Source: Chlorobiaceae bacterium (GTDB lineage Bacteria > Bacteroidota > Chlorobiia > Chlorobiales > Chlorobiaceae). Taken from it: a stretch of DNA of 45,973 nucleotides. Position numbers and translations under genes: made by a program. The notes beneath the pieces were generated by a model. The model saw nothing but the letters and a program-made list of their open reading frames with translations, had not been told where the DNA came from and ran no database searches. Shown here in pieces: positions 2,269 through 44,045 of the stretch. The stretch is taken from contig JAAXWQ010000004.1 in NCBI GenBank assembly GCA_013335115.1, positions 1 through 45,973 on the forward strand. Direction: 5' to 3'. Position 1 is the first letter of the stretch; each line of letters starts with the position of its first letter.

Positions 2269-2976
2269 TTGGGGTGTTTTTTTGTAAAAAAAGTTCCTCG
2301 GGCTGTCCGGATTCTTGCAAGAATTAAAAATATTTATTACAATTGTTAAGAATGTTCGGCAGGGTAGCGTAGCAGGTTTGAATTCCCTCCTTCCTTTTGC
2401 CCGATTGATACCGATGACCGCCTTACCCCCGTGCTTGAGTTCCCACGTGATATGTGGGGTTTTGACATACGATGTTGTTACTTCCCTGATTTTTTGATCG
2501 ACCTCTTTTTCATGCAAATCTGATTGGTTTCAGGATGATTTCGCAGGGATCTTTATTCCTGCCTGTTTTTCCTGGATCCTGATCCTGACCTCGGATACCT
2601 GTCCGATTCCCGGGAGGGAATGGTGCAGTCTGCTCGATACAGGAAGAGGAATTTTGCGTTTTCCCGTAGTACTTACCATATCGACATATAGTTCGTCTTT
2701 ATTGGCACTTCGCCGATAAGATCCTCTGCCTCTCAGGTCCCTGTTCAACTGCGCGTATGCGCATAAACAATTGTTGATTCGTTTGTCTGAATCCTGACGA
2801 TTGTTCGTGCCGCCTACGTCATAACGCACGGTATAGGAATTTTTACGCCTGATCTAAGTCTGGTTGGGCAAAGCCTTATGCACTCTGGTGCTACGTATCG
2901 TCTTGTCGGTTGTATTTCTCGGTCAGCAACTTTTCAGTCAGCATTTTTCAATAAAATCTATACTTCGGAGCAATTC
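2269..2976. other. 708-base gap upstream of the Cyc2-like gene
   Basis: No convincing gene is seen. The gap is less GC-rich than its neighbours and holds an A+T-rich patch (2320-2350, including 'AATTGTTAAG') that could be a promoter. An unsupported 99-codon frame lies on the - strand (2530-2829); it lacks a ribosome binding site and resembles no family I know. The gap could hold a long 5' leader, a small RNA or a decayed gene. A good ribosome binding site (GGAG, 2967-2970) marks its right end. Confidence 0.5.
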
Positions 2977-4245
2977 ATGAAAAGAAAACTCACCATTGCC
3001 TCCCTCGTTTCGCTGTGCACCCTACCGTTGGTCACGCCCTCGAACGACGCGTCAGCCATCCCGGCATTTGCCAGGAAATATGGTACTTCTTGCTATACCT
3101 GCCACTCGGGTTTCCCGGCAAGGAATGCCTTCGGTGAGGCATTCAAGAACAACGGCTACCGCTGGCCGGGTGGGGAGGACGAGGACAAGACCAAGCAGGA
3201 TCAGTTGAAGATGGGCGCCGACGGATGGAAGAAGACTTTCCCCGAAAGCCCTTGGCCGGCTGAGATTCCGGGGTATGCGCCGATATCGCTTTGGGTTCGC
3301 GGCAACCTTGCCGATTATGCCACAAGTTCCGAAAAACAGGATGGGACGGTGGTTACCCCGTCGAGGTCACTGTGGGGTAATGGCGTGTTCAACAACGCGA
3401 CTATTTTCTTTGGTGGTACCATGGGTGACAACCTTTCGGCTCTAGTCCAGTACAACCCGACGGCTGGCAGCACTACCGGCCAGCTGGTATGGACGTTCAG
3501 GCCTGGCCTGAAGCTGGCGTTCGGAAACGGGTTCACCGACCTCAGCTTTGGAAACGCAACAAACAATACCGCTTTCGCATCTGCGCTTGTTCCCGCCTTT
3601 GGTAACGCCACCGGCAGCAGCGTAGCGGAACTCGTGTACATCCCGCAGGATTACCTCAAGTTCACTGCTGGTGTCGGACAGGCAGGAACAAACGTCACCA
3701 ACAGCTTTTCTGACTTGAAATACTTCCGCGCGAGGTACAAGGTCGGTGGCGCAGGCCTCCTGAGCGGTGCTGGCGGTACTTACGGGAACGAATTCGTCGG
3801 CCTCGACAACAATATCACGTTTGCGACAATGGTGTACAGCGCTGCTCCCGGAACTGCTGCCGCAGCTGGTGCTACCGCAAGTGCTTTCGTGTCTTCCACC
3901 GGCGTCACCGAACGCTTGATTTGGGAAGCTGACGTCACCGGCAGCTATGGTAACTTCCTCGGAGGCCTTGGCTTCAGCAGGAGCACCAACATCTCGAAGA
4001 GCAACATCAAGGCTGAAGCGGCCTACTTCCTCTATCCCTGGCTGAAGGGATCGGTCGTCTACACTGGACTCAACCAGCAGGATACCCCGACGGTTGCATA
4101 TGCGCTGACGACCCACGTGCGCGCCAATGCTTCCCTGGCGGCAACGTATACCCAGAACCTCAGGCAGTGGTCGGCGACGAAGAGCCCGGTTACGACTGGC
4201 TCCAACCAGAATACCATTGCGTTGGCAGGTGCCTTTGCCTTCTGA
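2977..4245 (+). CDS. Cyc2-like monohaem cytochrome-porin fusion, outer membrane
   Basis: The 422-residue product starts at the ATG six bases after GGAG; an upstream in-frame start would spoil the signal peptide. Residues 1-27 form a signal peptide ending in Ala-Ser-Ala. The mature protein opens with 'IPAFARKYGTSCYTCHSG', giving one haem c motif (C39, C42, H43), then 'FGEAFKNNGYRWPG'. About 330 residues of glycine- and aromatic-rich alternating strands follow, ending in Phe-Ala-Phe, as expected for an outer-membrane beta-barrel. A short N-terminal CXXCH domain fused to a barrel is the architecture of Cyc2, the outer-membrane iron oxidase of neutrophilic and acidophilic iron oxidisers and of Fe(II)-oxidising Chlorobi; length also fits. 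Similar monohaem barrels of unknown substrate exist elsewhere, so iron oxidation is an inference. A bc/b6f-like complex is encoded immediately downstream. Confidence 0.65.
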   Translation: MKRKLTIASLVSLCTLPLVTPSNDASAIPAFARKYGTSCYTCHSGFPARNAFGEAFKNNGYRWPGGEDEDKTKQDQLKMGADGWKKTFPESPWPAEIPGYAPISLWVRGNLADYATSSEKQDGTVVTPSRSLWGNGVFNNATIFFGGTMGDNLSALVQYNPTAGSTTGQLVWTFRPGLKLAFGNGFTDLSFGNATNNTAFASALVPAFGNATGSSVAELVYIPQDYLKFTAGVGQAGTNVTNSFSDLKYFRARYKVGGAGLLSGAGGTYGNEFVGLDNNITFATMVYSAAPGTAAAAGATASAFVSSTGVTERLIWEADVTGSYGNFLGGLGFSRSTNISKSNIKAEAAYFLYPWLKGSVVYTGLNQQDTPTVAYALTTHVRANASLAATYTQNLRQWSATKSPVTTGSNQNTIALAGAFAF

Positions 4246-4622
4246 TCAAGTCAGTTCTTGACTCTGCAAGTGTCTGGAAAGGGGTGTCCGATGTCGGTTC
4301 ACCAAAGTGTTCTTTGATCGGCGCTTCTTTCCTCGACGCTTGCGTCGTCCATGATCTTGCAGTGACGATTTCCTGATTTTCTTCCGCCTCGGGGACGGGG
4401 TGGAGGGAAATCCGGAAGGGTTGCCTGCAAATTGGTTCTTTGTAATCGTGTGTGGTTGTGTTGTTGGTTGTGTTGGGGGTGTGCTCACCTGAGGGATGCA
4501 TTCCGACCTTGTTGGAACAACCTTTTGTGGGCATGCCTTTTTCTACGCCCGATACTTTTTTGCCTCTCCGATGAGGCTGTCGATTTCGAAAACGGTCTTA
4601 ATGAAAGTTAAAGCGATACTCA
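4246..4622. other. 377-base gap with a G/T-only tract, before the Rieske gene
   Basis: No gene is seen. Positions 4448-4483 are 36 consecutive bases made only of G and T on the + strand, ending in a run of five G. The right part (4540-4620) is more A+T-rich and probably holds the promoter of the Rieske operon, although no clear -35/-10 pair can be named. No strong terminator follows the Cyc2-like gene, so read-through into the operon is possible. Confidence 0.5.
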
Positions 4623-5177
4623 ATGCAGGATGAAAAAACGCTCCATGACGAGCAGCAGGGTTTGCCAGGCGGTCCGGCGGAAATCGACACCGACCGGCGC
4701 AAGTTCCTGACGAAAGTCGGTTGGGGCAGCCTCGCAGGCTTCCTGGCCATCAACTCTTACGCATTCCTCAGGTTCTTCTACCCGAGGGTGCTTTTCGAAC
4801 CGCCGTCGCAGTTCAAGGTTGGCTTTCCCAACGACTATCCCCCGGGTACGGTGAACTCGCAGTACCAGAGGGAGTTCGGTACCTGGATCATCCGCCTGCA
4901 GGACGGGAGGTTTTTTGCGATGGAGTCGAAATGCACCCATCTGGGATGCACGCCGAGCTGGCTCGAGTCGCAGAAGAAGTTCAAGTGCCCCTGCCACGGC
5001 AGCGGCTACTACATCAGCGGCCTGAACTTCGAGGGCCCGGCCCCGAGGCCGATGGATCGCTTCAAGATCAGCATCGCCGAGGACGGCCAGTTGCAGGTCG
5101 ACAAGACGATCAAGTTCCCGGGAGTCCCGGGCAAGGAGTCGAACGAGGTCTATCCGCAGAGCCTCCTGAAGGCATAG
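4623..5177 (+). CDS. petC: Rieske [2Fe-2S] protein of a cytochrome bc/b6f-type complex
   Basis: This 184-residue protein takes electrons from quinol at the outer quinone site and passes them to a cytochrome c or copper protein. The cluster-binding boxes are clear: CTHLGC (C104, H106 ligands; C109 disulfide) and CPCHGSGY (C122, H125 ligands; C124 disulfide). An N-terminal twin-arginine stretch (R25-R26-K-F-L) precedes a single hydrophobic anchor at about 34-52, as in Rieske proteins exported by Tat and kept membrane-bound. It is the first gene of a unit with a ferredoxin and the two cytochrome b halves. Green sulfur bacteria normally have a Rieske gene beside a one-piece cytochrome b, so this looks like a second, different complex. 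The symbol follows b6f naming because the cytochrome b is split. Confidence 0.93.
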   Translation: MQDEKTLHDEQQGLPGGPAEIDTDRRKFLTKVGWGSLAGFLAINSYAFLRFFYPRVLFEPPSQFKVGFPNDYPPGTVNSQYQREFGTWIIRLQDGRFFAMESKCTHLGCTPSWLESQKKFKCPCHGSGYYISGLNFEGPAPRPMDRFKISIAEDGQLQVDKTIKFPGVPGKESNEVYPQSLLKA

Positions 5178-5210: not shown

Positions 5211-5543
5211 ATGATGGATAACCAAGGGGAAATAACCATGACCGCAACGCCGCGGGAAGGAGCCGGGGGGCAGAAGAAGCGCGGGGTGGCCCGTGTCACT
5301 GCCGACCTGTGCACCGGTTGCGGAATCTGCGTCAAGAGCTGTCCGACAAGCTGCATCACCATAATCGAGTCTGAGTTGAACTTCAACGGCATCGCCCACA
5401 TCGAAAGCCAGCGTTGCACTGCTTGCAACATCTGTGCTGTCGACTGTCCATGGCTTGCGATCGAGATGTTCAATCCGGACGGATCCCGACGGGATCCCTC
5501 CGAATATGCAAAGCAGGCGAAGCGCCTTCGCGGATACCAGTAA
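5211..5543 (+). CDS. 2x[4Fe-4S] ferredoxin encoded inside the cytochrome bc operon
   Basis: The 110-residue protein has two full [4Fe-4S] motifs: CTGCGICVKSCP (C34, C37, C40, C44) and CTACNICAVDCP (C69, C72, C75, C79). It lacks a signal peptide or membrane segment, so it should act in the cytoplasm or on the inner face of the membrane. A basic N-terminal stretch (Gly-Gly-Gln-Lys-Lys-Arg) and a C-terminal tail rich in Lys and Arg flank the core and could bind a membrane partner. It lies 33 bases after the Rieske gene and 30 before cytochrome b, so it is almost certainly co-expressed with them. The start could also be ATG 5214 or 5238; GGAAGG at 5201-5206 favours 5211 or 5214. A partner role with the complex is inferred from position only. 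Confidence 0.9.
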   Translation: MMDNQGEITMTATPREGAGGQKKRGVARVTADLCTGCGICVKSCPTSCITIIESELNFNGIAHIESQRCTACNICAVDCPWLAIEMFNPDGSRRDPSEYAKQAKRLRGYQ

Positions 5544-5573: not shown

Positions 5574-6338
5574 ATGAACAGTCTCTACGACAAGGTCAAG
5601 AAAAACCTGATATGGAAATCAGTATTCCGGAGGGATTACCGGGACACGGCCCGAAACCGGGCTATGGCCATCTTCGGCAACGTGTTCCTCCACCTGCACC
5701 CGGTGCGGGTGCGTGAAAGCGCCGTCAAGCTGCGCTACACCTGGGGCATGGGGGGCATCACCTTCCTTGCCTTCATCATCCTGACCATCACGGGCGTCGT
5801 CCTGATGTTCTATTACCATCCGACGGTCGACCTGGCCTACCTCGACATGAAGGACCTGGAGTTCCAGGCGCCCTACGGGGTCATCAGCAGGAACCTGCAC
5901 CGTTGGGCGGCCCACTTCATGGTCATTGTGGTGATGATCCACATGTTCAGGGTCTTCATGACCGGATCATACAAGGCGCCCCGCCAGTTCAACTGGGGCA
6001 TCGGGGTAATCCTCCTGGTGCTGACCTTCCTCCTGAGCTTCACGGGCTACCTCCTGCCCTGGGACCAGCTGGGATTCTGGGCAATCACCGTGGGAACGAA
6101 CATGGGTGCAGCCACGCCATTGATCGGCTATCAGGGCCCGTTCAGCGAATTCCTGCACATCACGCCGTATAACGACATCAGGTTTGCACTTCTCGGTGGC
6201 GCCCAGGTGGGCGGCAATGCCCTGCTCCGGTCCTACATCTGGCACTGCATCGCCATACCGCTCATCTCGGTCATCCTCATGTTCGTGCATTTCTGGCGTG
6301 TCAGGAAGGACGGCGGTATTTCAAGACCTCAACATTAA
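5574..6338 (+). CDS. petB: Cytochrome b, N-terminal half (cytochrome b6-like), dihaem
   Basis: This 254-residue membrane protein is the haem-carrying half of a split cytochrome b. Four transmembrane helices hold two haem pairs: H109 and H123 (14 apart) and H224 and H239 (15 apart). The 14/15 spacing is that of b6-type proteins. '[13 protein letters not shown]' (158-170) is the conserved segment near the outer quinone site. In b6f complexes a cysteine just before a Gly-Gly-Ile-Thr segment binds the extra haem c_n; here that segment (60-63) follows Tyr-Thr-Trp-Gly-Met and no cysteine is present, so haem c_n is probably not covalently bound. This comparison was made by eye. The next gene supplies the missing C-terminal half, 19 bases downstream. 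Confidence 0.92.
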
Positions 6339-6357: not shown

Positions 6358-7242
6358 ATGAATCCATTTATCGAAATCATCACCCAGCCGGACAACATCG
6401 CCATCGTGATCATGATCGTGATGGTGACGTTCTTCACGATCTGGGGTTTTCAGCAGGCTTTCCAGAACGACAAGCTCAAGGCATCCGGTTATGCTGTGGA
6501 CGGTGAACTCGACCAGGATGTCGACACGTTCAAGCCCCTGGTACGCATCGAGCTCATCATCTCGCTGGTCGTCGTGCTCTTCCTGTCTATCTGGTCGATT
6601 GCGGTCGACGCTCCGCTCGAAGAGATCGCAAACCCGACGATCACACCGAACCCGGCAAAGGCGCCATGGTACTTCCTTGGACTCCAGGAACTGCTTGTCT
6701 ACTTCGACCCGTGGCTGGCCGGCGTCGTCCTGCCGACCCTGATCGTCGTCGGCCTGATGGCGATTCCCTATATCGACATCAATCCGAAAGGGAATGGCTA
6801 TTACACTTTCGCTGAAAGGAAGTATGCCGTCATCATCTTCGCTTTCGGCTTCTTCATCCTCTGGCTGCTGCTGATCGTCATCGGTGTCTTCGACAGGGGA
6901 CCGGGTTGGCTTTGGTACTGGCCCTGGGAGGAGTGGGACCATCAGCGTGTCGTTTTCGAACCGACGCGTGACCTGACCCAGGTGATCGGTATCGAGTCAC
7001 GTTCGATTCCCGGCTTCATCATCGGCGCCATCGTGGTGATCGGTTATTATGTCGCCGGCATGCTCCTGCCGCTGAGGCACTGGAGGAAGAACAATCCAGA
7101 ACTCCTGGCGCAACTCGGCATGATTCGTTACAACCTGATCATGTTCCTGTTTGTCACCATGATGTCGGTTCCGATCAAGATGGTGCTCAGGCTCGTCTTC
7201 CTCGTGAAATATGTCTGGATAACGCCGTGGTTCAACGTCTGA
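6358..7242 (+). CDS. petD: Cytochrome b C-terminal half (subunit IV-like), enlarged
   Basis: The 294-residue protein has about six hydrophobic segments (roughly 13-33, 63-83, 115-135, 153-176, 215-240, 260-282), against three in the 160-residue plant or cyanobacterial subunit IV. The quinone-site signature is at 'PAKAPWYFLGLQELL' (99-113): A102-P103-W104-Y105 takes the place of the usual Pro-Glu-Trp-Tyr, so the proton-accepting glutamate is replaced. Variants of this motif are known to follow quinone type. The region 180-215 (Trp-rich, 'GWLWYWPWEEWD') and the last two helices are extra relative to b6f and may bind the cytochrome encoded next. Together with the b6-like half it forms the membrane core of the complex. 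Its function with menaquinone is inferred from the likely host. Confidence 0.85.
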   Translation: MNPFIEIITQPDNIAIVIMIVMVTFFTIWGFQQAFQNDKLKASGYAVDGELDQDVDTFKPLVRIELIISLVVVLFLSIWSIAVDAPLEEIANPTITPNPAKAPWYFLGLQELLVYFDPWLAGVVLPTLIVVGLMAIPYIDINPKGNGYYTFAERKYAVIIFAFGFFILWLLLIVIGVFDRGPGWLWYWPWEEWDHQRVVFEPTRDLTQVIGIESRSIPGFIIGAIVVIGYYVAGMLLPLRHWRKNNPELLAQLGMIRYNLIMFLFVTMMSVPIKMVLRLVFLVKYVWITPWFNV

Positions 7243-7309
7243 TCCCATCGGGCGGACCATGAGAGAAAGAAGGTGTCATTCTGAAGCCAAATATTAAAAA
7301 TTGTTGAAC

Positions 7310-9922
7310 ATGGCGAGTGAGAATCAAAATACGACCAGGTTGAGGGCCCAGATCTTTGCCGGCCTGAGCATCGCCCTGCTGCTGTTGTCCGCATGGGTGA
7401 TCTGGGACGACGAGTTCGGCCTGAGGCCCTGGAAACATTACCAGAAAGAGTACAAGGCCCTCAAGCATGAGAAACTCGATAAGGAGTACCAGGACGCCCT
7501 GCGTGACTTCAAGAGGAGCGGGGGAGCCCGGAGGCTCGAAATGCTCGAGAAGCAGCTGGCGAAATCCGAGGAGGCGTTCAAGCAGAAGGGCGTCCATGAA
7601 CAGTACGTCAAGCTCAATGCGCAGATCGACGACCTGCATGCGAAAATGGCACTCAGCCAGAAGGAGCTGCAGATGGTCCGTGGCCAGTACCTCGAAACCG
7701 AGTACTACTTCACCAAGACCCAGAAGCCTGAGTACAAGAAGAAGATGGACGAGCTGCAGCGCCAGATCGACGCCATCGACCGGAGCAACAAGGCGCTGAT
7801 CGCCAGGGACGAGCCCCTGATGCAGCAAATCAGCAAGCTGACGGGTGGAATGGATGAGATCCGCGCCGAGATCGAGGCGATGAAGAAGGCCCTTGAGGAG
7901 CGGAAGGAGAAGATGGCCAACAACGACAAGGCTCCCATCGAGATCAAGCAGTACATGATCAAGGATACCGACAAGGCCGATCGCTGCGTATCCTGCCATG
8001 CGGGCATCGAAAGCTCCGCGCAGGTCTCCAAGAAGCAGCCCTATACGAAGCACCCGCTCGGGTTCGTCTACCTCGGCAAGCACGATCCGGGTAAGTTCGG
8101 CTGTACCTTCTGCCATCGCGGACAGGGACGCGCGACCACCACGATCGAAAAGGCGCACGGTAACGTCAAGCATTTCGCCGAGCCGATGCTCAAGGGCGAC
8201 ATGACGCAGACTTCGTGCCTCAACTGCCACGGTGACATCAAGAACCTGCGCGGCGCCGAGAAAATCGCCGGCAACACCGAACTGGTCAAGAAGTACGGCT
8301 GCTACAGCTGCCACAAGATCCCAGGCTACGAAGGCATGGGCGACGTGGGGCCAGAACTGACCAACGTCGGTACCAAGGTGAACTACTCCTGGGCGGTCAA
8401 GTGGCTCATGGATCCCAAGAAGTACTTCTCCACGGCCCGCATGCCGAAGTTCTTCTTTACGCAAGATCAGGCTGAAGCCATCGCCGACTACCTGTTCAGC
8501 ATGTCCGGTACGACCAGGCATGATGTTGACTATGCGGCCAATACGCCGAATGAAAAGCTGGTCGAAAAAGGAAGGTCACTCTGGAGCCAGGCGAGGTGCA
8601 ACCTCTGCCACATGACCAACGGCAAGGGTGGCAACCATATCAAGGTCTATGCTCCCGACCTCAGCAAGGTGGGCAGCAAGGCCAACAAGACCTGGCTGTT
8701 CAACTGGATCAAGGACCCGAACAAATATTTCCCGGGTACCAAGATGCCCCGATTCCGCTTCACCGACGAGGAGATAACCGCGCTGGTCGAGTATGTCGTC
8801 AGCGAGTACCAGGATGACGATGCGGAAAATAGCTATACCACGCAGGCCACCATCCCTGCTGCTTCAATCAAGAAAGGCAAGGACCTGATCCAGCAGTACG
8901 GCTGCTACGGTTGCCACAAGATCCAGGGCATGGAGATGGTTCAGGTTGCGCCTTCTCTCAAGAGCCAGGGGGTCACTTTCCTGAGAAATGATGAAATGCG
9001 GGAAAAGATAGGTACCGAGCTTTCGTCTATCGGCAGCAAGCCGGTCGATCTCCTCGATTTTGGTAAACTGAAGAAAGCGATACCTAACGACCGACTCAGT
9101 TATATCAAGCAGAAGCTTCGTGATCCGAGGGGTTTCAGGCTCGGCCTGCGCATGCCCAACTTCGGGCTCTCCGAGAAGGAGGTCAACGAACTTGCCGCCG
9201 TGCTCTACGGTTTCACCGACTCGAACGTTCCGAACCGCTTCCTGGTACCTTCCAGGCAGGAACTCGACAGGATGGCAGGCGTGCCCGGCTACAAATTCAC
9301 CGGTGATTTCGCCAAAGTGATTGCCGATGTCAAGTGCACCAACTGCCACTCCATCAAGGGGATCGGCGCGGACTACGCTCCCGACCTTTCCATAGTCGGC
9401 AGCAAGCTCCAGGAGGGCTGGATCAGGGGCTTCCTGGCCAATCCCGACGTCATCAGGCCGCTCATGCAGCAGATGCCGAAGCTTGGGCTGAGCGGAGGGG
9501 TGAAGCCGGCCAAGATTACCATGCCCAGGTTCAACCTCGGCAAGCAGAAGGTTGAAGACACCAACAGGTCGGACGTCGATGTCGTGATGAACTACTTCCA
9601 GCAGGAGCTGGTCACTCCGGACATTCCGAAGGATATCCCGACCGTCGGCGATGTGGCCATGTCGGAGCAGATTGCCCAGGGTAGGAAGCTCTATGACCAG
9701 AAGGGCTGCGTCTCCTGCCACCAGATCGGTACTGATGGCGGAGCCCTTGGCCCGAACCTGACGAACGTCGGCAACAGGCTGAAGCCGGGATTCATCTTCA
9801 AGCACCTTGAAAACTCGAGGAAGTTCAAACCTGATATCGTCGAGCCGAACTACGGCTTCACGGAGCGAGAGAGGATTTTCTTGACCAACTATCTGATGAC
9901 CCTGAAACTTACTGCCAAGTGA
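7310..9922 (+). CDS. Membrane-anchored octahaem c-type cytochrome with coiled-coil stalk
   Basis: The 870-residue product has an N-terminal membrane anchor (about 13-31), a long charged helical, probably coiled-coil region (about 45-205), and eight CXXCH motifs starting at C226, C265, C303, C331, C430, C532, C676 and C800. The last five lie in repeating class I cytochrome-like modules, most of which show a Gly-Pro-x-Leu/Ala-Pro-Asp-Leu segment after the haem and a Met-Pro before 'AI.DYLF'-type helices. The first three haems are spaced closely and differ from these. The protein should project into the periplasm and act as the c-type partner of the cytochrome b/Rieske core, in place of cytochrome c1 or f. 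I chose ATG 7310 rather than TTG 7301. No clear ribosome binding site is visible. The stop overlaps the next start, so the two are tightly coupled. Confidence 0.88.
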   Translation: MASENQNTTRLRAQIFAGLSIALLLLSAWVIWDDEFGLRPWKHYQKEYKALKHEKLDKEYQDALRDFKRSGGARRLEMLEKQLAKSEEAFKQKGVHEQYVKLNAQIDDLHAKMALSQKELQMVRGQYLETEYYFTKTQKPEYKKKMDELQRQIDAIDRSNKALIARDEPLMQQISKLTGGMDEIRAEIEAMKKALEERKEKMANNDKAPIEIKQYMIKDTDKADRCVSCHAGIESSAQVSKKQPYTKHPLGFVYLGKHDPGKFGCTFCHRGQGRATTTIEKAHGNVKHFAEPMLKGDMTQTSCLNCHGDIKNLRGAEKIAGNTELVKKYGCYSCHKIPGYEGMGDVGPELTNVGTKVNYSWAVKWLMDPKKYFSTARMPKFFFTQDQAEAIADYLFSMSGTTRHDVDYAANTPNEKLVEKGRSLWSQARCNLCHMTNGKGGNHIKVYAPDLSKVGSKANKTWLFNWIKDPNKYFPGTKMPRFRFTDEEITALVEYVVSEYQDDDAENSYTTQATIPAASIKKGKDLIQQYGCYGCHKIQGMEMVQVAPSLKSQGVTFLRNDEMREKIGTELSSIGSKPVDLLDFGKLKKAIPNDRLSYIKQKLRDPRGFRLGLRMPNFGLSEKEVNELAAVLYGFTDSNVPNRFLVPSRQELDRMAGVPGYKFTGDFAKVIADVKCTNCHSIKGIGADYAPDLSIVGSKLQEGWIRGFLANPDVIRPLMQQMPKLGLSGGVKPAKITMPRFNLGKQKVEDTNRSDVDVVMNYFQQELVTPDIPKDIPTVGDVAMSEQIAQGRKLYDQKGCVSCHQIGTDGGALGPNLTNVGNRLKPGFIFKHLENSRKFKPDIVEPNYGFTERERIFLTNYLMTLKLTAK

Positions 9923-10368
9923 TGCAAAAAAAGACACATATCAGGAAAACTGCTCTTCTTGCCGCGCTTTCGGTATTCGCCATTACCGGATGCGGCAAGA
10001 AGCCGGGAAAAAACGACAAGGCAGGACAAGCGGCAGCCGATTCGGTTGCCGTGGCCGCCAGGGAAGCATCCATGCCATTCACCCTGAAGGAGGGCAAGCG
10101 CCTGTACAACCATTACTGCTTCGAGTGCCATGGGGATGCCGGTGATGGCAGCGGCCAGTATTATGGAGTCTCACTGACGCCGCAACCGGCCAACTTCACC
10201 GACAAGGCCTTCATGAAGAGCCTTACGGACGAGAAGATCACCAAGGTCATCAGCGAGGGGTCGGCCTCCGTCGGCAAGTCGAACATGTGCCCGCCGTGGG
10301 GCAGGACCCTCGACAAGGAGGAGATCGAATGCCTGGTGGAGTATGTGAAGACCTTCGTCCCTAAATGA
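9922..10368 (+). CDS. Monohaem class I cytochrome c lipoprotein
   Basis: This 148-residue protein starts at the ATG sharing one base with the stop of the octahaem gene (TGATG), which implies translational coupling. A lipoprotein signal ends at the lipobox Ile-Thr-Gly-Cys24, so the mature protein is anchored by lipid in the periplasm. One haem motif CFECH (C66-H70) and a probable axial methionine (M122, in 'SNMCPPWGR') mark a class I cytochrome. 'GDAGDGSG' after the haem is typical of cbb3 CcoP or soluble cytochrome c domains. It probably carries electrons between the octahaem protein and other periplasmic partners. A hairpin (10384-10409) follows the gene. Confidence 0.9.
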   Translation: MQKKTHIRKTALLAALSVFAITGCGKKPGKNDKAGQAAADSVAVAAREASMPFTLKEGKRLYNHYCFECHGDAGDGSGQYYGVSLTPQPANFTDKAFMKSLTDEKITKVISEGSASVGKSNMCPPWGRTLDKEEIECLVEYVKTFVPK

Positions 10369-10383
10369 CACGGTTGGTAAAAT

Positions 10384-10409
10384 GATGGCGGACAAGAGGG
10401 TCCGCCATC
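10384..10409 (+). terminator. Hairpin after the cytochrome operon (weak or partial terminator)
   Basis: GATGGCGGAC (10384-10393) pairs perfectly with GTCCGCCATC (10400-10409) around a six-base loop. No T-run follows, so it may stabilise the upstream mRNA end rather than terminate fully. Confidence 0.5.
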
Positions 10410-10589
10410 CAGGGTCAGGTTGCCCCGGATTTTCCGGTGACAGCCCCATGGTACCGGAGGACAAACGCATCGTCAATTATTTCCTGTTCTTTCATGGCGA
10501 TTAATAATTGTTAACTTGCTACTCTTCGATTGATTATTCATCGCACAGGATTCGTTACAACACAACCATACCACTCAAAGGAGTTCATT

Positions 10590-11189
10590 ATGAAAATGAA
10601 ATCTACGTTCATCAAGACCGCCATCCTTGCTGCCGGTTTCGGCATGCTTAGCTCGAATGCCTTCTGTGCCGGCACCGTCACCGGTACGATCGATGCCGCC
10701 AACGCGAAGTACAAGAAGGATACCGTCGTCTACCTGAAAGGCGTGAAGGGCCCGATCACTCCGAAGAAGGGCATCGTGGACCAGAAGAACCTTGTTTTCG
10801 TACCTCATGTGCTCGCAGTGCCGAGCGGTTCTTCCGTGGAGTTCAAAAACACCGACAAGGTCAACCACAACGTCTTCTCGGCAGACGTCTGCAAGAAGTT
10901 CAACCTGGGTACCTACACCCCCGGCATGTCCAAGGCGGTCACTTTTGACAAGCCCTGCGTCGTGAACCTGCTCTGCAACGTACATTCCGAAATGTCCTCC
11001 TATGTCGTCGTCATCGATAGCAATTACTACGCTGTCAGCGATGCCAGTGGCAAGTTCACCATCACCGGTGTTCCTGCAGGTACCTACGAAGTCGACGCAT
11101 GGAGTGAAAAGTTGAAACCGGCAGCCAAGACCATGGTTACCGTCACTGATGGTGGCACCGCAACCATTGCCATGAAACTTGCCAAGTAA
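10590..11189 (+). CDS. Periplasmic cupredoxin-like (type 1 copper) protein with C-terminal beta domain
   Basis: The start is ATG 10590, preceded by a strong ribosome binding site (AAAGGAG, 10577-10583). The 199-residue product has a signal peptide (cleavage near Phe-Cys-Ala, 25-27). Residues 65-143 form a plastocyanin-like domain with a full set of type 1 copper ligands: H93 ('VNHNVFS'), C129, H132 and M135 ('CNVHSEM'). A C-terminal beta-sandwich (about 150-199, 'GKFTITGVPAGTYEVDAW') resembles the carboxypeptidase regulatory-like domain found with such cupredoxins. A soluble electron carrier in the periplasm is the natural reading. A 220-base gap with a hairpin separates it from the cytochromes and A+T-rich sequence near 10500-10530 could be its own promoter. 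A strong terminator follows. Confidence 0.85.
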   Translation: MKMKSTFIKTAILAAGFGMLSSNAFCAGTVTGTIDAANAKYKKDTVVYLKGVKGPITPKKGIVDQKNLVFVPHVLAVPSGSSVEFKNTDKVNHNVFSADVCKKFNLGTYTPGMSKAVTFDKPCVVNLLCNVHSEMSSYVVVIDSNYYAVSDASGKFTITGVPAGTYEVDAWSEKLKPAAKTMVTVTDGGTATIAMKLAK

Positions 11190-11205
11190 CCATCAGTTGA
11201 CATAA

Positions 11206-11245
11206 CTGAACAAAGAACCCGCCTCCTGGCGGGTTCTTTGTTCAG
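11206..11245. terminator. Strong terminator after the cupredoxin gene
   Basis: An 18-bp perfect inverted repeat: left arm 11206-11223, loop TCCT 11224-11227, right arm 11228-11245. The arm contains AACAAAGAACCCGCC and the right arm ends in TTCTTTGTTCAG. The U-rich right arm would work mainly on + strand transcripts. Confidence 0.85.
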
Positions 11246-11399
11246 TGCTCCCGGCGCAGGAGGCAGGGGGAGTTCCCGCCCTGTCGATGGCATGAAATCA
11301 TGAAAAATGCCGTTAGTGATTTGCTTTTCGACGTTAAAAATGAAAATTACGGGCAGAGCCCCTATTCCTTAAGAAAAGAATACGACGACACCATTTCCG

Positions 11400-13217
11400 A
11401 TGAAACGAGCATTTTTCAAGCATATCCTTGTTTGTTGCCTGGCGCTGTGCTTTGCCCGGGTGACTGCATCCGCTGCCGATTTCCTCCAGCCTGAAAACGC
11501 GTTCCGGCTCAGGGCTGAGCTCGGTAAGGATGGGGGCGTCGCGTTGCATTGGGACATCTCCGACGGTTACAAACTCTACAGGAACGGCATCTCGGTAGTC
11601 GCCGAGGGCGGGGATGCCGTTCTCGGGGCTATCTCCTTGCCCAAAGGCGAAGCATATGTCGACCCTTCGACCGGCGTGAAGGACGAGGTGTACCATGGCC
11701 GGTTGGATGCGGTCGTACCCGTCGGCAAATCCGGTCCCCCTTTCCGGCTGAAGGTCACCTACCAGGGGTGTGCCGAGGACGGACTGTGCTATCCTCCGAT
11801 CGAAAAGCTATTCGACGTGGTGCCCGGCAAGCCAGGAGAACTCGCCCTGGCAAACGCTGCGGGGGCATCGCCCGCCAGTGCAGGCTTATCGCCAACGGTT
11901 CCTGCCAATCCGCAGCAGGGGAGTGGTGGCGAGGGGCAGTGCCTTGCCCATGACACCCTGAAGGGAGGGATCCTGTGGAAAATCGCGGCGGTTTTCCTCC
12001 TGTTTGGCCTCTTGCTTTCGTTCACCCCTTGCGTGTTGCCGATGCTGCCGATCCTCTCGTCGATCATCGTCGGCGAAGGCCAGAAGGTCACCAAAGGAAA
12101 GGGGTTTCTCCTTGCCCTTTTCTACAGCCTCGGGATGGCGCTGGTGTACACGGCCCTCGGCGTTGCAGCCGGCCTGGCCGGCGAGGGGCTGGCCGGGGCC
12201 CTGCAGAAGCCGTGGGTGCTGGTGACGTTCTCCATGATGCTGCTGCTTCTTTCGTTGTCGATGTTCGACGTCTACCAGTTGCAGGTACCGGCCTCGTTGC
12301 AGAGCCGGCTGACCAGAAGCTCCGGAAAACTGAAAGGGGGGCGCTTCGTCGGGGTTTTCCTTATGGGTTCGATCTCGGCCCTTATCGTCGGTCCGTGTGT
12401 TGCGGCGCCATTGGCAGGAACCTTGGTGTACATCAGCCAGACACGCAACGTGCTGCTCGGCGGCCTGGCGCTGTTTTCCATGGCGATGGGCATGAGCGTG
12501 CCGTTGCTGCTGCTCGGGTTGTCGGCAGGCAGCCTCCTGCCGAAGGTCGGCTCGTGGATGACCGGGGTGAAGCATCTGTTCGGCTTTGTGCTGATCGCCG
12601 TCGCGATATGGATGATCAAGCCGGTGCTGCCGCCGCTGGCCATTCCCGTTGCCTGGGGCGCCCTTGCCCTGTTCGCATCGGTGTTCATCGGACGTTTCAA
12701 ACTGCATTCCGGCAACAGGAAACAGTCCCCGGCGTTTATGGCGATCGGGGTGGTCCTGGCGTGTATCGGTGTCGTCGAAATGATCGGGGCCGCAACGGGG
12801 TCGGAAGATCCGCTGAAGCCTTTTTCGGCTTTTCAGCAGGGCCCGGGCAGGAAGGAGGAAAATATCAAGGTGCTCGCCTTCAAGAGGATCGGCAGCATCG
12901 AAGAGCTTGACCGGGAGCTGCAGGGGACGGACAAGCCGGTGATGCTCGATTTTTCTGCCGAATGGTGCGTCTCTTGCAAGGAACTCGAGCATACGACGTT
13001 CCGTGACCCGGGTGTCGTTGCGAAACTCTCGGGTATGAAACTCCTCAAGGTGGATGTGACCGCGAACACGGAGCAGGACCGGGAGCTGATGAAGCGCTAC
13101 GGCCTTTTCGGACCCCCTGCCATCCTGTTCTTCGACCGGCACGGCAATGAGCTCGCCGGTACCCGCATCGTCGGTTACGTCGATGCGGCTGGGTTCCTGA
13201 AGCGCCTTGCCCGGTAG
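11400..13217 (+). CDS. dsbD: Thiol:disulfide interchange protein DsbD, full length
   Basis: DsbD brings reducing power from cytoplasmic thioredoxin to the periplasm, among others for cytochrome c haem attachment. The 605-residue protein has all three parts. After a signal peptide (1-26) the N-terminal immunoglobulin-like domain carries C124 and C130 ('YQGCAEDGLCYPP'). The membrane domain (about 190-470) carries its two cysteines at C211 ('FTPCVLPML') and C333 ('GPCVAAPLAG'). The C-terminal thioredoxin-like domain has 'EWCVSCKELE' (C523, C526). Length matches the E. coli type. It lies downstream of a cluster encoding ten c-type haem sites, which suggests a role in their maturation, but the strong terminator before it and the 210-base gap show separate transcription. 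Its stop lies two bases from that of the convergent gene. Confidence 0.95.
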   Translation: MKRAFFKHILVCCLALCFARVTASAADFLQPENAFRLRAELGKDGGVALHWDISDGYKLYRNGISVVAEGGDAVLGAISLPKGEAYVDPSTGVKDEVYHGRLDAVVPVGKSGPPFRLKVTYQGCAEDGLCYPPIEKLFDVVPGKPGELALANAAGASPASAGLSPTVPANPQQGSGGEGQCLAHDTLKGGILWKIAAVFLLFGLLLSFTPCVLPMLPILSSIIVGEGQKVTKGKGFLLALFYSLGMALVYTALGVAAGLAGEGLAGALQKPWVLVTFSMMLLLLSLSMFDVYQLQVPASLQSRLTRSSGKLKGGRFVGVFLMGSISALIVGPCVAAPLAGTLVYISQTRNVLLGGLALFSMAMGMSVPLLLLGLSAGSLLPKVGSWMTGVKHLFGFVLIAVAIWMIKPVLPPLAIPVAWGALALFASVFIGRFKLHSGNRKQSPAFMAIGVVLACIGVVEMIGAATGSEDPLKPFSAFQQGPGRKEENIKVLAFKRIGSIEELDRELQGTDKPVMLDFSAEWCVSCKELEHTTFRDPGVVAKLSGMKLLKVDVTANTEQDRELMKRYGLFGPPAILFFDRHGNELAGTRIVGYVDAAGFLKRLAR

Positions 13218-16215: not shown

Positions 16216-17193
16216 TCATGTGATCCGGCCTTGACGGCGTGCTTCTGCGACGAGTACCGCAAGGGCGCATGACAGGAGCCGCGCTCGAAGGTTGTCGGCA
16301 CGGCTCGTGAGGATGATCGGTACGCGCGCTCCCATGACGATGCCCGCAGCGTCGGCGTGGCTGATGAAGGTCAATTGCTTGGCGAGGATGTTAGCGGCCT
16401 CGATGTCCGGTAAGAGGAGGATGTCCGCGTTTCCGGCCACTTCGGAATCGATGCCTTTCCTTCGTGCGGCGTCGAGGCTGATGGCGTTGTCGAATGCCAG
16501 CGGCCCGTCGATGACACATCCGGCGATCTGGCCCCGTTGCGCCATCTTGCACAGTGCCGCGGCGTCGATCGTGGCCTGCATGGCCGGATTGACGACTTCC
16601 ACGGCGGCAAGCACGGCGATCCCGGGAGGGCGAGCCTCCCCGGTCAGCGCATGCCATGCGTCGATGGCGTTGCGGCAGATGTCCGCCTTGACGGCGAGGT
16701 CCGGTGCGATGTTGACGACGGCATCGGTGACGATGAGCCATTTTTGGTAGCCTGCCGTGTCCATGGCATAAGCGTGTGACAGGCGGCGCCCGGTGCGGAG
16801 ACCGGAGCCGTGGGCTACGATCGGCCCCAGCAGTTCGTTGGTGTGCAGCGACCCTTTCATGATGGCCTGGACGGAGCCATCCGCCGCCATCCCTGCGGCC
16901 TTCCCGGCAGCATCGTGGCTGTGGGCGGCATCGACGATCTTCCACCCGGACAGGTCAATGCCGGCTTTCGATGCCGAAGAGCTGATCCGTTCTGCAGGGC
17001 CGACCAGGACGGGCTTGATGAGGTTTTCATCGACGGCTTCCCGGATGGAGGCGATGTCGAACTCGTCGACCGGATGCACCACTGCCGTCATGAGCGCAGG
17101 AAGTGCGGCGCAGGCGTCCATCACCTGGTGATAGCGCTCATGGGAGCGCACCTGTACCTCTGGAGGTTCGTCCGGTGCGAATGCGTGGGTCAT
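16216..17193 (-). CDS. Phosphate acetyl/butyryltransferase family protein
   Basis: The 325-residue protein belongs to the phosphotransacetylase/phosphotransbutyrylase family, which exchanges acyl groups between CoA and phosphate. Typical pieces are 'AVVHPVDEFDIASIREAV', 'KGSLHTNELLGPI' and, near the end, 'SHADAAGIVMGARVPIILTSRADN', which holds the conserved Ser-Arg-Ala-Asp-x of the acyl-phosphate site. It looks like the short C-terminal enzymatic module also found fused to an enoyl-CoA hydratase in other bacteria; here it is free. ATG 17193 is chosen; GTG 17226 would add 11 residues and lies seven bases after the korB stop. It follows korAB on the same strand, so it probably shares their mRNA and could act on acyl-CoA made by that enzyme or on acetyl-CoA. 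The actual acyl group is not known. Confidence 0.85.
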   Translation of the reverse strand: MTHAFAPDEPPEVQVRSHERYHQVMDACAALPALMTAVVHPVDEFDIASIREAVDENLIKPVLVGPAERISSSASKAGIDLSGWKIVDAAHSHDAAGKAAGMAADGSVQAIMKGSLHTNELLGPIVAHGSGLRTGRRLSHAYAMDTAGYQKWLIVTDAVVNIAPDLAVKADICRNAIDAWHALTGEARPPGIAVLAAVEVVNPAMQATIDAAALCKMAQRGQIAGCVIDGPLAFDNAISLDAARRKGIDSEVAGNADILLLPDIEAANILAKQLTFISHADAAGIVMGARVPIILTSRADNLRARLLSCALAVLVAEARRQGRIT

Positions 17194-17232
17194 GCCTTTC
17201 GGTGTTGGATGTTCAGAACTCTGCACGGGTGT

Positions 17233-18096
17233 TTACCGGTACCTGTCGATCATCTGCTTCAACATTCCTTCTTCAGGGGGCTGTCGGCTAAACAGCGGCT
17301 TGTCGGGTACACCGGCAAGATCCTCGTAGAGCGCCCTCCGGTCATTGCGGTAGAATACGCCGAGCGGAAGCTTTTCGTCCTGCAAGGCGAGCCGGAATGC
17401 TTCGACCCGGTCGGTGGGGTCGTACCCTTCCGGCAGGGCGCAGGTGTGTTCCCTGAACCACTGCCAGGTGTTGAGTTTGTTGAACACCACGCACGGCTGG
17501 AACACGTCGACGATCGAGAATCCCCTGAAGGATATCGCCTGCATGATGATGGCCTTCGCCTGCTCCACATCTCCGGCCCATGCCCTCGCCACAAAGGGTG
17601 CGTCGAGCGAGATGGCAACGGCAATCGGGTTGAACGGTTCGGGCACTACCCCGCCAACCTGGACGGGCGTTTTCATTCGTTGCCGCGATGTCGGGGACGC
17701 CTGTCCCTTGGTGAGTCCGTAGACCATGTTGTCGTGCACGATGACAGTGGTGTCGAAGTTCCTCCGGATGGCGTGCAGCAGGTGGTTCCCGCCCTCGCCG
17801 TACATATCCCCGTCCCCCGATTCGACCACGACGACGAGGTTCCTGTTGGCCATTTTGATGCCGAAAGCCGCGGGAAGCGCCCGACCGTGCAGTCCGTTGA
17901 ACATGTTGACATCGAGGTATTGCGGCGCTTTTGCCGCCTGTCCGATGCCCGATACCATGACGAGCTCCTTCCGGTCGATGCCGAGCTCCCGGAACGCCCC
18001 CTTGACGGCATTGAGCAGCATATGGTTGCCGCATCCGGGACACCAGGCGATGTCGGTGCCGGGAGGCATGTCGAACGTCTGTTGCGGTTCATGCAT
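17233..18096 (-). CDS. korB: 2-oxoglutarate:ferredoxin oxidoreductase, beta subunit
   Basis: With KorA it forms 2-oxoglutarate synthase, which fixes CO2 onto succinyl-CoA using reduced ferredoxin in the reverse TCA cycle. The 287-residue product has the thiamine diphosphate site 'ESGDGDMYGEGGNHLLHAIR' with Gly-Asp-Gly-Asp, and cluster cysteines in 'IAWCPGCGNHMLL' near the N-terminus plus a later cysteine in 'DVFQPCVVFN'. A ribosome binding site (GGAGG and AAAGG on the - strand) precedes ATG 18096, and the reading frame overlaps the end of korA by eight bases. I name the substrate from the host and family size; other 2-oxoacids (for example branched-chain) are possible. Confidence 0.9.
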   Translation of the reverse strand: MHEPQQTFDMPPGTDIAWCPGCGNHMLLNAVKGAFRELGIDRKELVMVSGIGQAAKAPQYLDVNMFNGLHGRALPAAFGIKMANRNLVVVVESGDGDMYGEGGNHLLHAIRRNFDTTVIVHDNMVYGLTKGQASPTSRQRMKTPVQVGGVVPEPFNPIAVAISLDAPFVARAWAGDVEQAKAIIMQAISFRGFSIVDVFQPCVVFNKLNTWQWFREHTCALPEGYDPTDRVEAFRLALQDEKLPLGVFYRNDRRALYEDLAGVPDKPLFSRQPPEEGMLKQMIDRYR

Positions 18097-19801
18097 ACCT
18101 TTCCTCCCTGAGTGCCTCCATGACCTCTTCAACCGAAAACGGTTCGCCGGTGGATTTCAGGATCCTTCGATCGACGGTACATCCGCTTTCGTGCGACAGG
18201 ATATCGGCGAACTGCCCGGTGGCGTTGTTTTCGATGACGACGATCCGCCGGTTGTCCAAAAGGGGAAAGCAGGATGGATTGAGGGGATAGGGCTGTGCGA
18301 AGTGCAGGCCGGCGATCCTTCCTGAACCGGGCATATCCAGCACCTCCTCGACCACTCCCCTGTTCGATCCCCAGCAGACGACCAGCGTGTCTGCATCCGC
18401 TATCCGGCCAATCGGCGTCGGCATGAGCGCTTTCTCGGCAAGTGATCGTACTCTTTTCATTCGCTTCTCGACCATCCTTCGCCGCACCTCGAAGCTTTCG
18501 GTGATCACGCCCTGTTCATCATGCTCGTCGGAGTCGATGCGTACGATCCCGGAGCCGTGCCCGGGGACTCCTCGAGGGCTCAGGCCGTCATCGGTCAACG
18601 CGTATCGCCGATAATCTTCGCTGGTTTCGATGATCGACGTTTCCGGCGGCAAGTGCGCAAGTCCGGAGGTGTCGATGGTACAGGTTGCGTCGAGCAGGTA
18701 TTGGTCGGTCAGCATGAAGACCGGCATCTGTAACTGCTGGGCAAGGTTGAAGGCCCTCTGCATGGTTTCGATGATCTCCCCGGTGGTGCCTGGTGCGAAA
18801 ATGGCCCTCGCGAAATCACCGTGGCCGGCATGCAGGGCCAAGGCGAGATCCCCCTGTTCGGTGCGGGTCGGCAGGCCGGTGGCCGGTCCGGGACGCTGGC
18901 CGATATGGACGACGATGGGCGTTTCGATCATTCCTGCAAGGCTGACCCCCTCCTGCATGAGGTCGAAGCCACCTCCCGATGTCGTGACGATAGCCCTGGC
19001 GCCGGCGTAGGATGCCCCCAATGCGGCATTGACGGCAGCGATTTCATCTTCCGCCTGGTCGACCACGATGCCGAAATCGGCCGCATGTGCGGCAAGGAAG
19101 GTGAGCAAACCCGTTCCGGGTGACATCGGATAGGAACTGATGAAATTGCACCCGGCCAGTAATGCGCCTATACCCAGCGCGGTGGTGCCGTCCAGCAGGA
19201 GCCGCTCTCCTCCAGGCGAAGTCATCGGCAATGGTGGCTTGATCGGGAGGCTTGAAGATGAGAGCTTTGCGATGAAATCGTAACCAAGTTCAGCAGCATG
19301 GAGATTCCCTTCGACGACCCGCTCCCCCTTGGGGCTGAACTTTTCTTTCAGGTACATGGCAAAACGTTCGGCTGGAATGCCCAGTAGCGCCAGGGCGGCC
19401 CCAGCCACGACGGTATTGGCAAATACGGCCCCCCCGGCTTGCCGGGCGAGTTGGTGCAGCGGTAAATCAAAACAGTTTTGCCCCCATGGGCCACCGAAGC
19501 TTTCCTGCTCTGCCAATATCAGCGTTTCGTTGACAATCCGCCCGTTCAAGCGATCGAATGCAAGAGGTGACATGGCGAACAGCACATCGATGCGCGAGGT
19601 GTATGCCTCCCGCTTCCTGCCCGTCACCCTGATCTCGACCGAATTGCTTCCCCCGCGGATACGCGACATGTATTCGGTGCAGGAGAAGAGGTGGTAACCG
19701 CTGTTTTTCAGGATCGGCAGGATGGTCGCTGCCACCGTCTGGATGCCCTGCCCTGCTTCGCCCTCGAAGACCAGGGTGATGTCACGTCTCTCGTCATGCA
19801 T
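18089..19801 (-). CDS. korA: 2-oxoglutarate:ferredoxin oxidoreductase, alpha subunit (gamma-alpha fusion)
   Basis: The 570-residue product combines the gamma domain (about 1-180, 'FEGEAGQGIQT' at 12-22) with the alpha domain ('FISSYPMSPGTGLLTFLA', about residue 225), the arrangement of two-subunit 2-oxoacid oxidoreductases. 'AGARAIVTTSGGGFDLM' and 'PGPATGLPTRTEQGDL' follow in the alpha domain as in relatives. The frame stays open 46 codons upstream of the chosen ATG 19801, but that part is not conserved-looking. The gene precedes korB with an eight-base overlap, giving equal synthesis of the two subunits. It acts in the cytoplasm with reduced ferredoxin supplied by the reaction centre in green sulfur bacteria. 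The promoter must lie in the 217 bases between this gene and the divergent gene at 20019. Confidence 0.92.
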   Translation of the reverse strand: MHDERRDITLVFEGEAGQGIQTVAATILPILKNSGYHLFSCTEYMSRIRGGSNSVEIRVTGRKREAYTSRIDVLFAMSPLAFDRLNGRIVNETLILAEQESFGGPWGQNCFDLPLHQLARQAGGAVFANTVVAGAALALLGIPAERFAMYLKEKFSPKGERVVEGNLHAAELGYDFIAKLSSSSLPIKPPLPMTSPGGERLLLDGTTALGIGALLAGCNFISSYPMSPGTGLLTFLAAHAADFGIVVDQAEDEIAAVNAALGASYAGARAIVTTSGGGFDLMQEGVSLAGMIETPIVVHIGQRPGPATGLPTRTEQGDLALALHAGHGDFARAIFAPGTTGEIIETMQRAFNLAQQLQMPVFMLTDQYLLDATCTIDTSGLAHLPPETSIIETSEDYRRYALTDDGLSPRGVPGHGSGIVRIDSDEHDEQGVITESFEVRRRMVEKRMKRVRSLAEKALMPTPIGRIADADTLVVCWGSNRGVVEEVLDMPGSGRIAGLHFAQPYPLNPSCFPLLDNRRIVVIENNATGQFADILSHESGCTVDRRILKSTGEPFSVEEVMEALREERYA

Positions 19802-20018
19802 TGGCGCCTGGGTCGTGAACTTCCGTTGAAGATGAACCGACAACATCGCTGGGGATTTCAGGAGGGATTCGATTGCTTTAACCACCAGCGTTGCCCGATA
19901 TGTTCCCGGAAACCGCCGGCAGAAAAAGGTCGGCGGCAAATGAGCACAGGATGGGCGTTTGCTGGTTAAGCCCCGGCTGGTTAAATTGAGTATATTTCAA
20001 AAATATGGGCGGAGTTAC

Positions 20019-21020
20019 ATGGTATTTCCCCCATGCCTCCTGTCGCTCATGTATGAATTCATCCTCTTGTTGGCCTTCTTTGTGGCAGTAGCGCTTATTG
20101 GTTTGCTCGTCACAAGATATCGTCAACATCTGCGCAAGAAGGCTGTCCGCCGAAGCTTTGAAACCTGGGCGATAGGTATTTACGAGGGCACCTCTCCTGT
20201 CCAGCTCCACTCCCCTTCCGACATAGCCAATCCGGTCCTTACCGCATCCGATGTCAGTGATGTACGGGCAAGGTTCGTGGCCGATCCGTTCATGATCAGG
20301 GTCGAAAGCGGGTATTATATGTTCTTCGAGGTGCTGAACGACCGGAGGAACCTCGGCGAAATCGGTTATGCGTCCAGTCCTGACGGGAAGGAATGGCAGT
20401 ACCGCAGCATCGTCCTGCGCGAACGCTTCCACCTCTCCTATCCGTATGTCTTTTCATCGGATGGCCACTATTACATGATCCCTGAATGCGGTGCGTCAGG
20501 GGGTATCCACCTCTACCGGGCCGTGGAATTTCCCGAGCGGTGGGAGCGCATTTCGACGATCATCCGGGGTGACCGGGAGCGGAAGGCGGTCGTCGACCCT
20601 TCGGTTATCCGGCACGGCGGTCACTGGTACCTGTTCAGCTACGGCAAACATCGCAGCCTCCACCTGTTCGTCTCCGAATCGCTTGCCGGTCCATGGGTCG
20701 AGCATCCGAAGAGCCCGGTCATCTCGGGCACTCCGCAATTCGCGAGGCCGGGAGGCAGGGTGGTTGCCCATGAGGGCTGCATCCTGAGGTATGCCCAGGA
20801 CGAAACACCCCATTATGGAAGCCGGGTCTGGGCTTTCCGCATTGTCGAACTCACCCCGACGGCATACCGGGAAGCAGCGGCTTCGGATAAACCGGTCCTC
20901 GAGCCAGGCAACGAGTCCTGGAACCGTGACGGCATGCACAACGTCGATCCGCACCAGCAGGCTTCGGGCACCTGGCTCGCCTGCGTCGACGGATTCACCA
21001 TTCATTCAGCAAAGGAGTAA
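20019..21020 (+). CDS. Membrane-anchored five-bladed-propeller protein (GH43-like fold)
   Basis: The 333-residue protein starts at ATG 20019, four bases after GGAG; ATG 20049 is an alternative. An N-terminal hydrophobic segment (about 11-31) anchors or exports it. The rest shows repeated short patterns such as 'ARFVADPFMIRVESGYYMFF', 'LSYPYVFSSDGHYYMIPE' and 'AVVDPSVIRHGGHWYLFSYG', the blades of a five-bladed beta-propeller. This matches the glucosamine inositolphosphorylceramide transferase/GH43-like group, often encoded with surface-polysaccharide genes. Acidic residues at the blade starts (Asp-Pro) occupy the position of glycosidase catalytic residues, but activity is unproven. The next gene, nine bases on, is a glycosyltransferase, so a role in making or trimming a surface glycan is likely. 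Confidence 0.65.
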   Translation: MVFPPCLLSLMYEFILLLAFFVAVALIGLLVTRYRQHLRKKAVRRSFETWAIGIYEGTSPVQLHSPSDIANPVLTASDVSDVRARFVADPFMIRVESGYYMFFEVLNDRRNLGEIGYASSPDGKEWQYRSIVLRERFHLSYPYVFSSDGHYYMIPECGASGGIHLYRAVEFPERWERISTIIRGDRERKAVVDPSVIRHGGHWYLFSYGKHRSLHLFVSESLAGPWVEHPKSPVISGTPQFARPGGRVVAHEGCILRYAQDETPHYGSRVWAFRIVELTPTAYREAAASDKPVLEPGNESWNRDGMHNVDPHQQASGTWLACVDGFTIHSAKE

Positions 21021-21028
21021 CCGCCAAG

Positions 21029-22102: not shown

Positions 22103-22231
22103 TCCTTTCCTACCCTGTTTTCGAGCCGGCTTACCTTTTATTATTTTGATAATTATTGGCATATGCTCATATATTGCCGGTAAATTCTTATCTTTGTTGG
22201 TTTCATGAACGTTTGAAATCAACGGTTGGCT

Positions 22232-23404: not shown

Positions 23405-23433
23405 GATATTCCGTTTCGCAGATCCCTGGAAAA

Positions 23434-23471
23434 AACAGGAAAAGCAGGCTGGACGGCCTGCTTTTCCTGTT
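23434..23471. terminator. Bidirectional terminator between the SQR-like gene and aclA
   Basis: A 16-bp perfect inverted repeat: 23434-23449, loop TGGACG 23450-23455, right arm 23456-23471. Both arms carry an A- or T-run next to the stem, and the two flanking genes converge, so it can serve both strands. Confidence 0.88.
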
Positions 23472-23500
23472 ATGAAAGAACAACCGGCAGACGCCGGAAA

Positions 23501-25333: not shown

Positions 25334-25395
25334 GGTTCAATCAGTTTAATGATTTTCTGTAATCTTTTATTTCAAGGCGATGCGTCGAGGGTGCA

Positions 25396-44042: not shown

Positions 44043-44045
44043 CAA

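Follow-up and report, generated by a model that had tools for sequence, protein, structure and literature searches.

A ferredoxin gene inside a Cyc2-linked Rieske/cytochrome b cluster of Chlorobiaceae: a candidate cytoplasmic partner of the complex

In a Chlorobiaceae genome, a gene for a small 2x[4Fe-4S] ferredoxin lies between the Rieske and cytochrome b genes of a second Rieske/cytochrome b complex, and it is no chance neighbour of that complex. A functional link between the two is strongly supported by sequence comparison, given that they co-occur in 34 of 34 genomes, that the C-terminal tail of the ferredoxin is invariant, and that the sister clade has an FAD/NAD(P)/Fe-S oxidoreductase in this position. 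There is a good probability that the ferredoxin serves as a dedicated redox partner on the cytoplasmic (n) side of the complex and, given such a partnership, a net flow of electrons from ferredoxin to quinone is the likelier direction. The reading as a whole, in which a dedicated n-side ferredoxin subunit or partner passes reaction-centre electrons towards menaquinone, has in our judgment an even chance of being correct.

The ferredoxin gene and its cluster

The window analysed here is a contiguous stretch of 45,973 nucleotides from a genome of 2.1 Mb that is of the green-sulfur-bacterium type and whose nearest named relatives by cytochrome b are Chlorobiaceae. The cluster comprises, in order, genes for a Cyc2-like protein, the Rieske protein, the ferredoxin, cytochrome b, subunit IV, an eight-heme cytochrome c, a further cytochrome c and a cupredoxin (Table 1). 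The ferredoxin reading frame is separated by 33 nucleotides from the Rieske gene and by 30 from the cytochrome b gene, in agreement with the preliminary description, which had placed it within 35 bases of both neighbours. Given that promoter and terminator scans of the cluster yielded counts no higher than in shuffled sequence, the case for an operon is made only on the gene spacing.

Table 1 Features of the ferredoxin-containing cluster and of nearby carbon-fixation genes in the window
Feature	Position	Strand	Basis
Cyc2-like fused monoheme cytochrome/outer-membrane porin	2878..4245	+	N-terminal CYTCH, then ~16 beta strands
Rieske [2Fe-2S] subunit	4623..5177	+	twin-arginine start RRKFL; CTHLGC...CPCHGSGY; Pfam Rieske 40.4 bits
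2x[4Fe-4S] ferredoxin	5211..5543	+	110 aa, predicted cytoplasmic; conserved tail YxxQxxxxRGY
b6-type cytochrome b	5574..6338	+	Pfam Cytochrome_B 135 bits; alignments
Subunit IV-like protein	6358..7242	+	~6 hydrophobic segments; Pfam Cytochrom_B_C; KAPWY in place of PEWY
Membrane-anchored octaheme cytochrome c	7301..9922	+	8 CXXCH, one N-terminal TM segment; Pfam Cytochrom_C
Monoheme cytochrome c	9919..10368	+	Pfam; lipoprotein-like N-terminus; conserved beside octaheme gene
Periplasmic cupredoxin-like protein	10530..11189	+	Pfam Copper-bind 25.3 bits; conserved
Apparent ATP-citrate lyase subunits	23501-25333, 25396-26592	-	reading of translations
Apparent 2-oxoacid:ferredoxin oxidoreductase	17233-18132, 18089-19939	-	reading of translations

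The product carries two CxxCxxCxxxCP motifs within a small protein, the features of a bacterial-type 2x[4Fe-4S] ferredoxin; it scored 49.5 bits against Pfam Fer4_21 (cut-off 35) and gave clear 4Fe-4S dicluster matches. All eight cluster-ligand cysteines were invariant among 15 aligned sequences, and the C-terminal tail was also invariant in alignment. The NH2-terminal ~20 residues vary among orthologues, and ATG codons at 5214 or 5238 are possible alternative starts. No signal peptide, transmembrane helix or hydrophobic segment was apparent in the translation, and the ferredoxin is therefore predicted to be cytoplasmic. The twin-arginine start of the Rieske protein, on the other side, indicates that its cluster faces the periplasm, and the opposite placement of the two proteins in the preliminary description thus stands as a prediction. 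Given that ferredoxin and cytochrome b share one frame, we modeled them with AlphaFold as a single read-through chain in which TAA was read as Gly (42 aligned rows); the model had a pLDDT of 63 and a pTM of 0.46, with low confidence both for the ferredoxin and for the relative placement of the two parts.

The complex resembles cytochrome b6f in its Rieske protein, its four-helix cytochrome b with two b-heme His pairs (His109/His123 and His224/His239) and its separate subunit IV. It differs from b6f in that an eight-heme cytochrome c stands for cytochrome f, a ferredoxin gene is included, the covalent heme-cN Cys is absent (the position is Gly in 15 of 15 Chlorobia sequences aligned), and KAPWY replaces PEWY. 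The octaheme cytochrome c, of 873 amino acids, has a long helical NH2-terminal region and may start at ATG 7310. The upstream gene has the cytochrome-porin architecture of Cyc2: it has an NH2-terminal CXXCH, examined with an alignment of 13 orthologues, and an AlphaFold model of modest confidence predicts the outer-membrane barrel, which Foldseek matched to OmpF/OprP-type porins. Fe(II) oxidation by this protein is putative.

A separate, canonical Rieske/cytochrome b pair is encoded elsewhere in the genome; the reading frame of that cytochrome b carries PEWY, and it likewise lacks the heme-cN Cys. This canonical complex, the Cyc2-like gene and the octaheme cytochrome all go beyond the preliminary description. 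The Rieske motif is CPCHGSGYY in the cluster versus CPCHGAKY in the canonical protein. Crystal structures and electrochemistry of anammox Rieske proteins have tied the corresponding Ser and Tyr to high potential (PMC12954380).

Other genes in the window were named by reading their translations. Apparent reverse TCA genes lie on the minus strand, no more than about 20 kb from the cluster (16216-26592; Table 1), an apparent arginine biosynthesis run in the order argC, argJ, argB, argF, argG, argH spans 38041-45632, and two adjoining genes at 33092-35624 read like LolC/E-type lipoprotein-export permeases.

Distribution in Chlorobia and in other phyla

The ferredoxin gene was present in 34 of 86 Chlorobiaceae genomes, and the cluster-type cytochrome b was present in the identical 34, as confirmed by comparison of the two sets. 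The distance between the two genes was 28–41 nucleotides in the loci examined. Among the 60 relatives compared first, together with the genome of the window, every close ferredoxin match stood in the same gene order where the contig allowed, and the order also recurs in a member of another family of the same order (G041). The search of other genomes for this order that the preliminary description had called for thus found it conserved.

The Cyc2-like gene was detected in all 34 genomes with the cluster versus 22 of the 52 without it (Fisher p = 3e-9). Of the 14 clusters compared at the outset, 13 have it 5' of the Rieske gene, and the remaining one is truncated at a contig end. Most of the 34 cluster genomes have it directly upstream, whereas in several a contig end cuts it off. 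One genome (G070) has its Cyc2 gene elsewhere and retains an intact Rieske-ferredoxin-cytochrome b arrangement, which indicates that the ferredoxin tracks the complex rather than Cyc2. A second, more distant Cyc2-like gene (37% identity) is found in the genome of the window at G000:C26:35654-36856; paralogues resembling it occur throughout the family, including in genomes that lack the ferredoxin-bc cluster.

The cluster does not track the loss of sulfur oxidation, a link that was rejected because dsrA is above cut-off in 22 of the 34 cluster genomes versus 34 of the 52 others (Fisher p = 1). In the genome of the window, no dsrA exceeded the curated cut-off; its window also encodes an FAD protein resembling sulfide:quinone reductase (22226-23404). 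A search of the same genome for RnfB gave weak matches only, below the cut-off.

These distributions bear on whether the ferredoxin might be a soluble electron carrier, such as a reaction-centre acceptor, whose gene is simply transcribed along with the complex in a Cyc2-linked regulon. The protein is small and looks soluble, PsaC and other 2x[4Fe-4S] domains are among its relatives by sequence, and the ferredoxin evolves faster than cytochrome b (mean identities of 60% versus 89%), although faster evolution would also be expected of a soluble partner of the complex. Its exclusive co-occurrence with the complex, its fixed place between two subunit genes, its invariant tail and the presence of an Fe-S oxidoreductase in the sister-clade slot speak for a partner instead, and we regard an independent carrier as unlikely.

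A scan of GTDB genomes with the cytochrome b alignment yielded 80 loci in Acidobacteriota, Poribacteria, Nitrospinota, Planctomycetota, Bdellovibrionota and other groups. Rieske, cytochrome b and subunit IV genes recur in these loci, usually together with an eight-heme cytochrome c and often with a cupredoxin. The quinol-site motif is KAPWY, not PEWY, throughout the family (79 reading frames from the 80 fetched loci). The Rieske Ser is present in 75 of 75 sequences counted and the Tyr in 40; these residues, being common in the wider family, describe it rather than the Chlorobia case.

A ferredoxin gene between Rieske and cytochrome b was found in none of the 78 non-Chlorobia loci of the family examined. 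The preliminary description had stated that bc and b6f operons normally do not include a ferredoxin; this holds for that position, but in one Ignavibacteria-like genome (G052), which belongs to the phylum but not to Chlorobia, a ferredoxin gene lies immediately before the Rieske gene. At that locus (L071), the 2x[4Fe-4S] ferredoxin gene (8313-8630, minus strand) directly precedes genes for Rieske, cytochrome b, subunit IV, cytochrome c and cupredoxin, followed by cytochrome oxidase genes. A further locus (L072, genome G060) shows an FAD/NAD(P)/Fe-S protein (2734-4722, plus strand) upstream of Rieske, cytochrome b and cytochrome c genes; next comes a gene that, by reading, resembles nitrous oxide reductase.

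In the cytochrome b tree, Chlorobia were sister to an anammox-type clade with support of 94/76, slightly below the usual threshold. In three of this clade's five loci (L079, L082 and L109), a protein of ~590–610 amino acids that combines FAD/NAD(P)-binding with 4Fe-4S domains is encoded between Rieske and cytochrome b; two others (L103 and L146) show no Fe-S gene at that position. The Brocadia sapporoensis locus (L085) has a protein of 568 amino acids 3' of cytochrome b that looks similar by reading rather than by family search. A gene for an unrelated-looking protein of 657 amino acids, DUF262/GmrSD-like by reading, is situated there between the FAD/Fe-S and subunit IV genes (9759-11732, plus strand).

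The size and place of the Chlorobia ferredoxin could fit a reduced leftover of such an Fe-S module, retained as a non-redox remnant or as an assembly factor of the complex. Given that all eight ligand cysteines are invariant, and that the ferredoxin has only 19–25% identity to the C-terminal domain of the anammox-type module with little in common beyond those cysteines, we consider this very improbable.

Comparison with known complexes

The complexes of the anammox bacterium Kuenenia stuttgartiensis encoded by Kuste4569-4574 and Kustd1480-1485 resemble that of Chlorobia in their Rieske protein, b6-like cytochrome b, subunit IV with extra helices and multiheme cytochrome c, as well as in having a cytoplasmic Fe-S module for electron transfer whose gene accompanies those of the complex. 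In loci of the Kuste4569-4574 kind, this module is encoded between Rieske and cytochrome b, in the slot of Kuste4570 (PMC12954380), as is the ferredoxin in Chlorobia. The Chlorobia module differs in being a 2x[4Fe-4S] ferredoxin of 110 amino acids without an FAD or NAD(P) domain, and the cluster differs in its lack of an HAO-like octaheme protein and of the heme-cN Cys and in its linkage to a Cyc2-like gene.

The Kuenenia modules have been placed on the cytoplasmic side, and AlphaFold3 models route electrons between cytochrome b and the Fe-S clusters by way of a predicted dimer-interface heme bound by His43 (PMC12954380). In the Chlorobia cytochrome b, His40 aligns with residue 43 of the homologue from Brocadia, which matches the interface-heme His43 of Kuste4571. 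All 17 diverse sequences compared have His at this position; given that these include complexes without a ferredoxin, NAD(P) or Fe-S subunit, the residue permits an interface-heme route without proving it.

The nearest named NCBIfam models for cytochrome b and subunit IV were ExtP and ExtQ of the Geobacter Ext cluster (ExtO/P/Q/S), in which a Rieske protein is encoded alongside. Membership in that system was rejected, the scores lying below the curated cut-offs (254.9 versus 290 for ExtP, 51.7 versus 150 for ExtQ). The described Geobacter cluster extHIJKLMNOPQS lists no ferredoxin (PMC5877670).

Direction of electron flow and significance

In the explanation that we prefer, the ferredoxin would be a cytoplasmic subunit, or a partner closely dedicated to a second b6f-like complex that includes an octaheme cytochrome c and belongs to a Cyc2-linked module conserved in green sulfur bacteria, and would fill the role of the FAD/NAD(P)/Fe-S oxidoreductase of the sister anammox-type complexes. 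The homodimeric type I reaction centre would reduce ferredoxin, which would reduce cytochrome b from its n-side, with the electrons moving on to menaquinone, perhaps through a dimer-interface heme like that proposed for anammox complexes, with His40 as its ligand. Such a path would provide cyclic electron flow and a supply of menaquinol in cells whose electron donor comes in through Cyc2 at high potential. We infer physical docking of the ferredoxin on cytochrome b, the interface heme, the direction of flow and the role of Fe(II) as donor from these comparisons.

Energetics point the same way. Electron transfer from ferredoxin to menaquinone is downhill by ~400 mV. Bifurcation from menaquinol to ferredoxin with P840+ (about +240 mV) as oxidant would gain about 310 mV at a cost of 380–430 mV and would thus be uphill by roughly 70–120 mV. 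Of the two directions raised in the preliminary description, electron input from ferredoxin is therefore favoured over ferredoxin reduction. NADH-dehydrogenase-like complexes could provide an alternative route from ferredoxin to menaquinone.

The same balance weighs on a coupling at the quinol site, by which menaquinol would be bifurcated to cytochrome c and ferredoxin or, in reverse, formed by confurcation at Qo. For the anammox sister-type complexes, bifurcation to NAD(P)H has been proposed, and the menaquinone potential is given as -70 mV (PMC12954380); a Rieske protein near +300 mV and a ferredoxin near -450 mV would lie symmetrically about that value. The cluster Rieske protein has the high-potential Ser and Tyr, the canonical Rieske protein having Ala for the Ser, and Gly in place of the heme-cN Cys might weaken quinone reduction on the n-side. 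The high-potential residues are widespread in the family, however, the loss of the Cys is shared with the canonical cytochrome b and hence not specific, and forward bifurcation falls short energetically, so that quinol-site coupling in either direction appears doubtful. Confurcation with cytochrome c electrons is feasible on energetic grounds. Its specific form, in which one reaction-centre electron from ferredoxin and one Fe(II) electron arriving through Cyc2, the octaheme cytochrome c and the Rieske protein would together form menaquinol at the quinol site, is in our estimate improbable, more so than quinol-site coupling in general; if it were true, iron could supply part of the electrons for quinone reduction in photoferrotrophic green sulfur bacteria.

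As far as could be found, a Rieske/cytochrome b complex, probably of anammox type, that is linked to Cyc2 and in which a ferredoxin replaces the FAD/NAD(P) module has apparently not been described before. Cyc2 is a published marker of photoferrotrophy in Chlorobia, and the available sections of the papers concerned (PMC8302410, PMC8125076, PMC9342728, PMC12442345, PMC5374249) mention no adjacent bc complex or ferredoxin. A full-text search combining cyc2, Rieske and Chlorobi returned one review, which made no such link; an earlier description may exist in the Chlorobia cyc2 literature. Cyclic electron flow in green sulfur bacteria is, according to a review, predicted only (PMC11269200).

With the ferredoxin as a dedicated n-side partner of the complex, the cytoplasmic module of the anammox-type Rieske/cytochrome b complexes would have a simpler counterpart in a phototroph. 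For the questions of how type I green sulfur bacteria handle electrons from Fe(II) and whether ferredoxin drives cyclic flow in them, the eight-gene module supplies concrete parts, namely a Cyc2-like porin, a cupredoxin, cytochromes and a second bc complex with its own ferredoxin, and thereby makes both questions testable.
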